From: Dysidea avara
Taxonomy: Eukaryota > Porifera > Demospongiae > Dictyoceratida > Dysideidae
Assembly: GCF_963678975.1 (NCBI RefSeq)
Contig: NC_089274.1
Location: 16,943,633 to 17,007,632, forward strand
Reading direction: 5' to 3'
Length of the DNA: 64,000 bases
Shown: positions 52,414 to 60,902 of the stretch, piece after piece
Numbering within the stretch: position 1 is the stretch's first letter
Layout: every line of letters begins with the position of its first letter
The notes under the pieces: model-generated
What the model saw: only the letters and a program-made list of their open reading frames with translations
Databases searched by the model: none
What the model was told of the DNA's origin: nothing
Program-made: the position numbers and the translations under genes

Positions 52414-54022
52414 ACATACAATAAAATGGTGATAAATGTCATAAAGAAGCATGACCATGGTATAGCAGCTAGTACACTTCTTGTTTCTAGGACTTTATTG
52501 TATTGCAGTACCTTACCAACACACAATTCTGAACTTTTAACATTAAAACTCTGTATTGAACCATTTCTGTAATTCATGCTTAATGAGTAAAGAATTTTTT
52601 TCTGATTAAAAAGTTATGTAACACTGCATGCACTGTCATGCTAACCTAGAGTACACTTCTATCTCTTAGGTGAATAGCCAGCCAGGCTGGCATGGAGAGA
52701 CTGTTATTACTATTAGTCTACCCTATAACTTTACACACCAGTATAGTAGTAATATATATAACTTATAAGCTTCTTTTACTTTGGGTTAAGAGGCCAGAAA
52801 GTGGTGTTAAGTTGTCATGGGTTTAAAGCTTCCCATAAGATGTAAACAAATCTTGAAACATTATATACATTACAAAATATGCATTGTTGTTGTTATTGAG
52901 CTTTACAGTGACCAGCACTGAAGGTCTGACATGTGCTGGAGCCTTTGGATTACCTAACCTAGCATTGTTATAGTGTGCTTATATATGTACATACATGACT
53001 GATATTCTACTTACAAACTCTTAAGCACATGCACGTGTGACTAATAGCGCTAGGTGTGTCCTAACAATTAATAGCATGTTATTTCAATTAGAAATACATA
53101 TGTACTTGTGCACATATTACCTCTAATATATATATATATATTAGATATTATATCACACACATATTCCTATGCAGATGACAAACAGCACTTTGATTTCTCA
53201 TTGCTTGTTTTGTCACAAGAGAAATCTTCAATACGGTGAAGCATTATATTCGTGCGATTCCTGTTCAGTGTTTTTACCACAAGTTCTTGATGGGCACAGG
53301 ATAGCTGGTGAACCTGATTAAAAAAAAACATGTTATAACAAAACGCAAGGTACATCTACATAGAAATTTGATGATAGAGAATATTTTGTACCACAGGATT
53401 ATTATAGTGATACATACACCAAAAGCCCAAGGGCTGTGGGTGCATGTATGTATCAGCAAAATCCTAAGCAGCCATGGTATAAGTGATACATATCACTCAG
53501 GGCATACTCACCGATAGGTGAAAGAACTACAGATCACTCACCCCATTTGTTTATACACTAGCATCTGATGATTGATTGTGGTTTCAAATGCATGGGTAAA
53601 TAGCTCTCAGAACATTATTCCTACGTCGTTATGTTTCAACACACCAGAAACTATTGATCGTGGGATTGATTTTTGGGATGCAAAGTTATTAAACCTTCAC
53701 TATTGTTGCAGTAATTAGTACTTAGGACTATAAGCTACTCACCCAGTTGTCATATTATTCTTGTTTCGTGGTCTACTCAATGGCTGACACGAGGGCTGAC
53801 ATGCCCACCATGCAGTGGGTAAAAATACACATCCACGCATCGCCCAAGTGCTCATTTCACAGATCATTTGTTTTAGAATATAGTATAGTTACAGTCAAAT
53901 AATCTAAACTTAGTAACTACACTGAGCCTAGCCTAACTTGTAAACCCAAACCCATAATTAAATGCTCCATGTCACTCAATAACGAGTCAAAGTGTATTGT
54001 ATCTTTGAACTGGTTGGGCTAA

Positions 54023-55514: not shown

Positions 55515-57718
55515 TCAACTCATATCCATCCCAACAAGAACACTAATAAGATGAGATGCCTGTCGGGATAAAGCAATATCTATATCAAAGCCCATGCATA
55601 GCCTGAGGGTTTTTTTTGGGTTGCACTTTTGAGCTTGATTATATAAAATTAACCAGTTATGCCTAGGAACCACGAAAATAGTACTACCATATTACATAAT
55701 AGATATACCTTTTTCACTATAAAATGTATGGCCTCTCGGATTCCTTGTCCTGTCTTGGCAGAAGTCTCAAAGTATCCTATAAATCCATGGTCCTTGCTGA
55801 ACTGTTCTCCATCAAGTTGTCCACAGTCCACCTATCATACCGGCAGAAGATCAAAAATTACATCATGATTCACTAAAGCCATTAATTTCAGCTGTATTAG
55901 TTGTTCCATGGGTGAGAATCTCAAGAGTATAGAGTTAGTATTACTGTATGTTAGAGCATAAATATATAGCTATACATCAACAAGAAATTAACAGAAATCA
56001 ATCAGCACAAAGAAAGTTCTAAAAATTTAAGTAAGGGATTGTGGTCTCAGTGAAACCGCACTAATTTGTTAGCAGCCACATCGTGTTTTGATAAAATATT
56101 TGTAGGTGAACAGTAATTAAGTGTACTGAAAGAATATAAGGTTAGTGCAGATATTTTACTTAGATAGACATGTTTAAATATTTCAGTCTATGAAAATAAT
56201 TGATCCTTCGGCTTGTGAAACAACTAATTAAGTTTACGTGACCTAAACATACTTTGTTGGCTATTAACACAACAGGAATGGGGTCACCATTTGTAAGGTA
56301 AACAGTACTATTGATTTCTTCCTTCCATTGTAGGCTGTGTTCCAGTGAATTCTTATTTGTAACATCATAGACCACAAATGCTGCTACAGCATCTCTGTAA
56401 TAAGCCTTAAAGGGTAAAAACACCATATATGAAAATGCAAGCTGACAAAGGTTCCTGTTTTTGCATACCTGGGTTACTGCCTTAAACCTTTCTTGACCTA
56501 TTATAGTGCATATATAATATTCATATTACCATATGACTATTAACCTCTACCTGCAGTGTCCCATAAGTGTAACTTGTAATTTGTGTTGTTACATGCCAAT
56601 TCTTTATAGTGAAAATCAAGAGGAATCTGTTTGCAGTGTTAAAATACACTCTACATATATACACGTACTAGCTCACTGTTGGTTCATATAAAACAGAAAA
56701 TTTATTGTAGACATATTGGTGAAGTAGTGACGTCTTTCCAGTACCGGTATCTCCCACAATTATAATTTTTAGTACTGGAGTATTGCACCTTAGTTGGTCC
56801 ACACTGTGAACTGATCCCATTGTGTCGTGCTGGTGTTTTATGCGCTAATGGTTAAATACATACATTAGCTATACAAGAACTCACTTTATCCAATGCATCT
56901 TGACATTCCTCTTTGCTACTTGATTGCAATGTTAGCGGATCTGCTTGAAATCGTTCTTCCGTTGCAATTGTAGAAGCAATTAGCTCAGTTTGGTAAGACA
57001 CTTTTTTCCTAGGATTTGATCTTTCAGAAATGTGACCAGATCTTTCACGAAATGGTGTTACTAAGGCAGAAGTACGAAAGTCCTGAGGATACTGAAAAGT
57101 AGACTCTTGTATGCATTGCTCCCCAGCACTATTAACATTGTGCTTATCATTGTCATTATCTGACTCATTGTCATCGTTGTCAGAACTGCTATCATCAAAA
57201 ACATGTTTCTGGTGACTTCCACTGCCCCCGTCGGTGCATGCTTCATCTTTACAGAGTGCATCTGCATTCAATTCTTGTGAAGTAATGCTAGCACAGCCAA
57301 CACTGCTACAGCTAGCAGTCATCACAGAATCAGTAATGGATGCCTCTACTGACCATCTTGTCGGCCCAGTCCTAGTTTTTAACGTATCTACTGCTTTTTC
57401 ATATGCCTTATCAAGTTTGCTTAAGATTGCACGCTGCCCAGTCTTCTTTAAAGATCGTCTTAACATTTGCATTCCTTTGTAATGACCCTTGCCAGGGATG
57501 ATGCTGGTCAATAATAAACTCTTTCGATGAAGTTCAGGAACATAATTATTCTGAAGTTCTTCGTTCTCCAGTGGGGTTAGTCCATCGATAGAATACAACT
57601 GAACAATAGTTTCAAACAAGTTCAGCTGTTCTAACATATCCATGGGAGATATCTGTTTAAGTGCTTTATCAGCAGCTACATCAGATATGAACTTCTGTTT
57701 TGCTACCTTCCTCGACAT
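55515..57718 (-). CDS. CARD-Rab32-like GTPase fusion protein
   Basis: Exons 57718..56885, 56844..56677, 56626..56551, 56497..56469, 56405..56253, 55831..55709 and probably 55559..55515 are in phase, 475 aa. Residues about 25-110 fit a CARD (MDMLEQLNLFETIVQLYSID, LTPLENEELQ, LLLTSIIPGKG, LRRSLKKTGQ). An acidic Ser/Asp/Asn-rich linker follows to residue 278, then a Rab domain: P-loop GDTGTGKTS, switch I YEPTIPLDF, WDTAGQER, NKVD, ETSAK. AAFVVYDVT, PIPVVLIANK and DHGFIGYFETSAK point to Rab32/38/29. Those GTPases act on lysosome-related and mitochondrial membranes; CARDs join innate-immune and death complexes. CARD and Rab are joined by a 40-nt intron. The visible C-terminus has no prenylation cysteines. 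Alternatives are a bicistronic transcript, with a Rab ATG at 56818-56820, or an unseen final exon. Confidence 0.82.
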
Positions 57719-57938: not shown

Positions 57939-58516
57939 GATGAATTTCATAATAGCAAAAGTTGTCCCTAGCAACCTGAATTTTACAACATTTGTAGGGG
58001 TAAATGTCTATAGTAACATCTCCAAGTTTTAAAAGGATAGCATATATAGGTCATGAGATATAACATTTTAAAGTTTGTCATTTTCCCATACATTGTCTAT
58101 GAGAGGGGGCAACAGTTGCCCCTTCTGGGCAGTCACATGGATAATGTATGGGAAAACAACAAATTCAATTAATGTCATTTCTCAATTTAACATTAGCTAT
58201 TTGTAGGTATGAATCTCACAATTAACCTCTCCAAGTTTTAAAATGATAGAGTATATAGATCATGAGATATGACATTTTGAAATTTGTGATTTTCCCATAC
58301 ATTATCTATGTGATTGCCCAGAAGGGGCAACTGTTACCCCCTCCCATAGATAATGTATGGGAAAACTGTTAATTTTAAAATGTCATATATCATGACCTAT
58401 ATATGCTATGCTTTTAAAAATTGGAGATGTTACTTTTGACATTCACACCTATAAAATAATGTAAAATTCATGTTGCTAAGGGCAACAGTTTAAAATTCCT
58501 TATTATGAAATTCATC
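57939..58516. mobile_element. Foldback element, about 200-bp arms
   Basis: GATGAATTTCATAATAG at the left and its complement at the right. Within the arms, CCCATACATT..CTATG and GGGCAACAGTTGCCCC-type blocks recur in both orientations. No frame. Confidence 0.75.
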
Positions 58517-59787: not shown

Positions 59788-60902
59788 ATTTGAATCAGTA
59801 ATATGGTTCAGCGGCATCGACTCTACCTGATTAAATGGTTACAGACCCAAGGTATATTCAGTATCCTTGGCGAATGACTGTCAAGATTTCAGTTTAGATG
59901 GTGTCTTTGTGATCACATGGGTGAACTCATCCAGGAGACTGGAGGCATACAAGTCCTCGTAGTTTCTACTTATGGTCAAAAGTTAGTTTATATGCAAATA
60001 AATTTGTTTATATTAAATTGGTACAGAGAGTAAATTGAAGACAAAAGAGGAACTCTAGATCTGTAAAGACAGTTAGAATTCCGGTAGACTCTGACAATGG
60101 TATTGTCAATAGTCAGGTAACTAAGAATTTCCTCCTTCGCTGCGACCACACAGGACCGACTAACTGTGGTAGTGACTTCCGTATTCTCCGTAAAAGGTAC
60201 AGTAGACAGTAGTTCTTCATTTATTTAATACAAAGCTTTCCTCCTCTTTAGCACCACCAAATGTTCTTTTGAGACTAATTAAACTTTTGGAAAACCCCTT
60301 GGCTAGTCCCACGAAGTACTACTGAATAATGTACGCACGGCGCCATTTAAGTGCTACGTATTAAAGGTAAAAAAAATGTTAATGAATAAAATTAAATGAA
60401 CAAAACACTTTTTTTCTGATAATACACAGTATGTCACCAGTTAAGACAAAACAAAGTCAGTACAGCAGTTATATTACTAAAGGAAAAGTATAACATGCCA
60501 TGAGGTAAGAAAAACTTCACTCCAACAAGAAGCAGAAATGCATTGTGACTGCTATAAAGTTCTTAGTTACCTGACTATTGACAATACCATTGTCAGAGTC
60601 TACCAGAATTCTAACTGTCTTTACAGATCCAGAGTTCCTCTTTTGTCTTCAATTTACTCTCTGTACCAATATAAACAAATTTATTTGCATATAAACTAAC
60701 TTTTGATATTTTATTTCCATAAGTAGAAACTACGAGGACTTGTATGCCTCCAGTCTCCTGGACGAGTTCACCGATGTGATCACAAAGTCATCATCTAAAC
60801 TGAAATCTCGACAGTCATTCCCCATGCAAGGATACTGAATATACCTTGGGTCTGTAACCATTTAATCAGGTAGAGTAGATGCCGCTGAACCATATTATTC
60901 AA
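59788..60902. repeat. Long inverted repeat, about 340-bp arms
   Basis: 59788-60129 (starting TTTGAATCAGTAATATGGTT) and 60563-60902 are inverted copies with few differences, around a 433-bp unique centre. It lies inside a larger segment whose ends resemble the 7274-7637 MITE. Confidence 0.85.

Follow-up and report, generated by a model that had tools for sequence, protein, structure and literature searches.

Gene models in the sponge Dysidea avara join a CARD to a Rab32-related GTPase domain

The window analysed here is a 64,000-nucleotide stretch of the Dysidea avara genome (C3:16943633-17007632; the genome searched comprised 550.8 Mb in 108 contigs), and it contains a gene, designated copy A, in which a CARD is followed by a Rab-type GTPase domain. 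The gene extends from 57718 to 53167 on the minus strand and starts with the ATG at 57718. The model protein has 504 amino acids, consisting of the CARD (residues 1-115), a linker of 181 residues, a G domain of 160 and a tail of 48, and this CARD-linker-Rab architecture is solid at the level of the gene model (Table 1). A sequence-only reading of the stretch had proposed one leftward gene with the CARD and Rab exons in phase, and this proposal was borne out by the open frames, the phase-0 junction and the recurrence of the arrangement in paralogues. Its end of exon 1 at 56885 coincides with the donor GATAAA/GTGAGT; two of its other boundaries were revised. The acceptor that it had placed at 56844 is open and in phase 0, as is CACCAG/CAC at 56829, and the latter is preferred because exon 2 then measures exactly 153 nucleotides (nt), as in paralogues B and C. 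The last exon that it had ended at 55515 has no recognised counterpart in the paralogues and was dropped; the exon at 53313-53167 has homologues near all three of them, so the gene is taken to span to 53167. The stop of the CARD frame near 56852, which it had flagged as a possible transcript end, falls inside intron 1 of the model.

Table 1. Features of copy A (window positions) and location of its tandem paralogues
Feature	Position	Strand	Basis or remark
Exon 1: CARD and acidic, fast-evolving linker (278 amino acids)	56885..57718	-	ATG-opened frame; donor position common to 3 paralogues
CARD, residues 1-115	57374..57718	-	Family profile against PDB, AlphaFold, Foldseek, dN/dS
Linker portion encoded by exon 1	56885..57373	-	Selection and charge analysis
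Intron 1, 55 nt, phase 0	56830..56884	-	GT..AG; matching intron position in B, C and D
Exon 2: beta-1 and P-loop GDTGTGKT (codons 56754-56731)	56677..56829	-	144 nt in D, 153 nt in the other three tandem copies
Exon 3: switch I through WDTAG	56551..56626	-	76 nt in 4/4 tandem copies
Exon 4: GQERFKAVTQ	56469..56497	-	29 nt in 4/4 tandem copies
Exon 5: AYYRDAV through NK of NKVD	56253..56405	-	153 nt in 4/4 tandem copies
Exon 6: VD, ETSAK motif, through VKK	55709..55831	-	123 nt in 4/4 tandem copies
Exon 7: tail ending KSKCCLSSA (stop), candidate prenylation site	53167..53313	-	Phase-0 acceptor; homologous last exons near paralogues
Paralogue B	C3:17024788	Same as A	CARD identity 73%
Paralogue C	C3:17034374	Same as A	CARD identity 70%
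Paralogue D	C3:17070263	Same as A	CARD identity 67%

When the CARD of copy A was searched by tblastn against the whole host genome, six places were obtained at E≤1, namely copy A itself, the three tandem paralogues and two weak places on C14 (E 0.025 and 0.053). Paralogues B-D lie 24-69 kb from copy A and retain the order of CARD, linker, short intron and Rab, with the Rab exon directly downstream of the CARD exon in A, B, C and D. Splice models of the CARD-to-Rab junction were made for these four and for the distant copy at C3:20622 kb. Intron 1 measures 55, 49, 54 and 66 nt in A, B, C and D, respectively, in phase 0 throughout, and in the distant copy a phase-0 donor and acceptor stand 44 nt apart. 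Between exons 1 and 6, the A-D models have 20 introns in all, 17 of them 44-66 nt long, so the 55-nt intron 1 is ordinary here. The arrangement recurs in the three close paralogues and, mostly at wider spacing, in distant copies. It exceeds what chance would give, and on sequence the CARD-Rab genes look like a real gene family.

The same frames bear on whether the locus holds two separate genes or a dicistronic mRNA, with a CARD protein running to about 56852 and a Rab begun at the ATG at 56820. Copy A does have a CARD-frame stop and an ATG ahead of the Rab, and retention of intron 1 could produce a CARD-only form. The ATG at 56820 is the only one in frame before the P-loop of copy A, 22 codons upstream; its start, MGSVHS..., resembles an N-myristoylation start, and B, C and D have no ATG there. 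Elsewhere, one such ATG was found in C3:19412 (30 codons upstream), two in C3:19414 (22 and 36), and in C3:19420 a single one, the codon immediately preceding the P-loop. On the other hand, in five of the nine Rab-bearing copies (B, C, D, C3:20622 and C14:12231), no ATG occurs in the open part of the Rab frame before the P-loop, although an unseen upstream exon is formally possible; the donor and phase-0 acceptor are retained in all four tandem copies, and exon 2 has the same length in three of them. Since the Rab frames of B, C and D lack an ATG ahead of the P-loop, they are most simply read as fused to the CARD; two genes are highly improbable, and that arrangement was rejected on the evidence of the five frames.

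With the tandem array included, at least 10 CARD exons of the family were counted, i.e., A-D, two on C14, C3:19410189(+), C3:19415896(-), C3:19415969(+) and C3:20623323(-), and in the sequence examined, Rab exons lie downstream on the same strand for 9 of the 10. The count is a lower bound, from regions picked by CARD and Rab matches. The local profile, built without the CARD of C3:19415969(+), detected that CARD at E 1.4e-10. At C14:12203897, no credible Rab exon was found within the 7 kb locus, which carries transposon-like open frames. For C14:12231, the sequence examined contains only part of the Rab: the P-loop, WDTMGQER and a weakly matching additional exon (E 0.002). In the other Rab-like copies of the examined regions, the profile detected no CARD. 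The family CARDs have diverged to 19-25% identity with the window copy, and the distant members are tied to A-D by tblastn in selected regions (C14, best E 6e-9) and by their common Rab partner. Searching the host genome with the CARD of C3:19410189 recovered three further members of the family, followed by four weak matches at E 0.08-0.39; Pfam CARD matches overlap three of these four. A tree of the Rab exon pieces, restricted to rows of at least 70 letters, of which several (including A and D) carry tblastn read-through residues, is too poorly supported to tell one fusion origin from several. The four-copy profile, run over contigs of prokaryote genomes and of viruses, found no relatives. 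At C3:17100001-17150000 (L021-L025), exon matches indicate at least five further Rab32-like copies, two with a non-CARD N-terminal extension bearing the motif Y-x-x-GRS-x-FFVP.

The N-terminal domain is divergent. None of the four tandem copies matched the Pfam CARD family PF00619, and a single-sequence phmmer search of PDB with the window domain returned no CARD. Among five distant members, three matched PF00619 below the cut-off (best 23.8 bits against 23.9): the two on C14 at E 4.5e-5 and 1.2e-4, just short of it, and C3:19415896 at E 0.035. The other two, C3:19410189 and C3:20623323, gave no Pfam CARD match, and the former has a sub-threshold match to SpoIVA_C (8.8e-4). A profile of nine family members gave 24 matches in PDB at E≤10, 20 of them CARD entries; the top eight sequences were ASC, CARD8 and CARD9 entries, led by ASC at E 0.0021, and the four non-CARD matches were a designed protein, two thrombospondin-related rows and a ribosomal protein. 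AlphaFold predicted seven helical segments for the domain of copy A (predicted local distance difference test score, pLDDT, 91.8; predicted template modelling score, pTM, 0.83), which fits the CARD fold of a helical bundle with a split first helix. The top five Foldseek rows were the CARDs of caspase-1, Apaf-1, BinCARD, CARD8 and caspase-9, each with probability 1.00, and the template modelling score to the target reached 0.83 at 1.9 Å; death and pyrin domains ranked below CARDs among the best 50 of 125 rows. The CARD-like helical domain that the sequence-only reading had seen in exon 1 is supported by the nine-member profile and the predicted fold, with the closest folds being CARDs at weak E values; of the profile searches, Pfam did not recognise the window domain and the nine-member profile ranked PDB CARDs first. 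By profile and predicted structure, we take the CARD identity of the family as established. The CARD of copy A is basic (net charge +6, isoelectric point 9.6).

CARD-only dominant-negative proteins act by titrating CARD partners, and the fused CARD might likewise draw such partners away at a membrane, with the Rab part setting the location. The divergence of the CARD and the lack of a recognised catalytic or NACHT domain in the same protein would suit such an inhibitor, but divergence alone does not tell an inhibitor from an activator, and we consider this distinctly improbable. The host genome has at least 149 Pfam CARD matches above the cut-off (150 scored of 331 candidates), none of them at the window gene, so possible CARD partners exist. 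Because the window CARD is invisible to PF00619, CARD counts based on Pfam can miss families.

The G domain of copy A matched Pfam Ras at 9e-45. Against PDB, it matched Rab32 (7e-44), Rab38 (1e-40) and Rab-7L1/Rab29 (2e-38), and then Rab7 (4e-31); among the 60 best of 585 matches, the nine best PDB sequences were Rab32, Rab38 and Rab-7L1/Rab29, with about seven orders of magnitude between them and the next match. The motifs GDTGTGKT, WDTAGQE, NKVD and ETSAK are intact and in phase in A-D, in agreement with the complete Rab G domain noted earlier. The assignment to the Rab32/38/29 type holds for the closest whole-domain similarity in PDB and fails for the Rab32 switch signature (IGVDFALK, WDIAG). 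In the tree of partial exons, A-D stand beside a canonical-looking Rab32 of the same genome (L030) with a support of 0.15. From sequence, the domain is Rab32-related and not a proven Rab32 orthologue. L030 itself, at C3:20606346-20610513 (+), carries IGVDFALK and WDIAG, was examined in sequence without its first exon, and lies about 13 kb from the CARD-Rab copy at C3:20623323.

The tails assigned to all four tandem copies contain CC: KKCCKN (stop) in C, TKCCLTT (stop) in D and SSKCC (stop) in B, whose exon, about 12.7 kb downstream of exon 6 of B, was assigned by homology alone. The canonical Rab prenylation patterns are CC, CCX, CCXX and CCXXX, which the tails of B, C and D fit and that of copy A does not. 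This di-cysteine tail, overlooked by the sequence-only reading, fits a membrane role and is likely a membrane anchor. An intact G domain would also suit a trafficking protein without an immune role, its CARD serving only to oligomerise a large Rab on a lysosome-related organelle; the host genome is CARD-rich, CARDs are mainly known as parts of complexes in immunity and cell death, and we regard this as improbable.

For the six pairs among A-D, the ratio of nonsynonymous to synonymous substitution rates (dN/dS) was 0.07-0.19 for the CARD (105 codons) and 0.07-0.18 for Rab exons 2-6, these ratios being rough since dS is 0.9-2.8 and near saturation. Both domains are under purifying selection on this sequence comparison. 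The linker is much freer, with a proportion of nonsynonymous differences (pN) of 0.39-0.54 and a dN/dS of 0.28-0.45 in the three of six pairs where it was computable. As the sequence-only reading had it, the linker is acidic: in copy A its full length to the G domain has a net charge of -15 and an isoelectric point of 4.6. A motif like FRxRSxHISxxxNP near the linker end (window 57373-56885) is kept in all four tandem copies and is a possible phosphorylation or docking site.

The selection data also bear on a guard or decoy, in which the Rab32-like domain would bait bacterial effectors that hit Rab32-group GTPases, and loss or change of the Rab would free the CARD and raise an alarm. The Salmonella effectors SopD2 and GtgE act on Rab32 itself. 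The family is tandemly expanded, and one study links the two effectors to evasion of the Rab32 pathway (PMC8759771). However, the G domains of A-D keep their motifs under strong purifying selection, more like a working switch, and we judge a decoy unlikely.

From the anatomy of the locus, i.e., the domain order, the common splice structure, the paralogues and the purifying selection on both domains, all of them features of the sequence, we infer a CARD adaptor that is prenylated, switched by GTP and located at a Rab32-type compartment. With a probability of about 0.6, the locus encodes one 504-residue protein in which a CARD, an acidic linker, a Rab32/38/29-related switch and a di-cysteine tail serve this function. 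The tail would be geranylgeranylated, and the Rab part would alternate between a cytosolic GDP state and a membrane-bound GTP state. Copies in the GTP state would gather on a phagosomal or lysosome-related membrane, where crowding would let the CARDs nucleate an assembly and bring in caspases, NLRs and adaptors as CARD partners; organelle identity would thereby turn on CARD signalling. More speculatively, the linker, being acidic, may mask the basic CARD in copy A until the membrane state is reached, but the CARD of paralogue D is acidic.

The immune-adaptor role that the sequence-only reading had proposed is plausible. Rab32 is reported to help itaconate reach the Salmonella vacuole (PMC8759771) and is tied by the title of another paper to pyroptosis in rat Schwann cells (PMC10885539), and an inflammasome response in zebrafish requires Gbp4, in which a GTPase carries a CARD at its C-terminus (PMC4932187); these papers do not show a role of a CARD-Rab protein. 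As a tentative extension, the CARD-Rab GTPases, at least nine in number, might form a separate class of innate immune switches, membrane-anchored and GTP-gated CARD nucleators that act without an NLR and read organelle identity, e.g., of a phagosome with bacteria or symbionts. Animal cells have CARD assembly and the marking of organelle identity by Rabs as two central but separate systems, here joined, and such a protein gives a testable way for a cell to read a microbe's place rather than its kind, and then to signal. If related animals share the family, it would be an early solution to vacuole surveillance.

Several points weigh against the switched adaptor. The case for a CARD-Rab protein rests on genomic sequence and predicted structure, and copy A could yield a Rab alone from the in-frame ATG at 56820. 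The Pfam search with the window domain alone gave no CARD match, a profile of A-D only gave a single PDB match at E≤10 (the RAIDD CARD, E 0.093), so the strong result of the nine-member profile leans on distant members, and no Foldseek match was found at E≤0.001 (best E 0.18). In copy A, IPLDFHYK replaces IGVDFALK at switch I, which might keep Rab32 regulators from binding, and WDTAG stands in place of WDIAG. The CC of copy A begins six residues from the end. Switch II seems altered in some distant copies (HDTPGEE, WDPAGK; exon ends approximate), and some members may therefore not function as switches. A direct connection to immunity was not found.

In the surroundings, window positions 58080-58370, upstream of exon 1, contain repeats in both orientations (CCCATACATTATCTATG and its complement), seen by eye and probably a mobile element. 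At 59988-60224 and 60481-60699, two open frames, one on each strand, have most of a peptide (LSYLTIDNTIVRVY...) in common and thus form an inverted repeat, probably a mobile element as well. Inside the Rab-like cluster, L028 (C3:19429069-19430547, +) is a 493-residue open frame that we take to resemble a Chk1-type kinase.

No CARD-Rab protein was found in a literature search that left subscription journals and preprints mostly uncovered and took long result lists in part, nor was any paper with both "CARD domain" and "Rab domain"; the sequence-only reading had likewise known of none. ASC, CARD8, CARD9, RAIDD, Apaf-1, caspase-1 and caspase-9 resemble the family in their CARDs by profile and fold, and to our knowledge none of them has a Rab domain or a prenyl tail. 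Rab32, Rab38 and Rab29 are alike in whole-domain similarity, P-loop, NKxD, ETSAK and C-terminal cysteines, to which the CARD-Rab protein adds an N-terminal CARD and a long linker; from the canonical-looking Rab32 of the genome (IGVDFALK, WDIAG) it differs by IPLDFHYK and WDTAG. Rab44, Rab45/RASEF and Rab46/CRACR2A likewise carry extra N-terminal domains ahead of a C-terminal Rab, but these are EF-hand and coiled-coil domains, and the terms CARD and death domain are absent from the main text of the review of large Rabs (PMC8303950). Zebrafish Gbp4 likewise has a CARD and a GTPase in one protein with an inflammasome role, according to that report (PMC4932187); it differs in that its CARD is at the C-terminal end and its GTPase is not a Rab, GBPs being placed in the dynamin superfamily in a further source (PMC9005921). 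Multi-domain Rabs and CARD-bearing GTPases are already known kinds, and the CARD-Rab architecture appears to be new.
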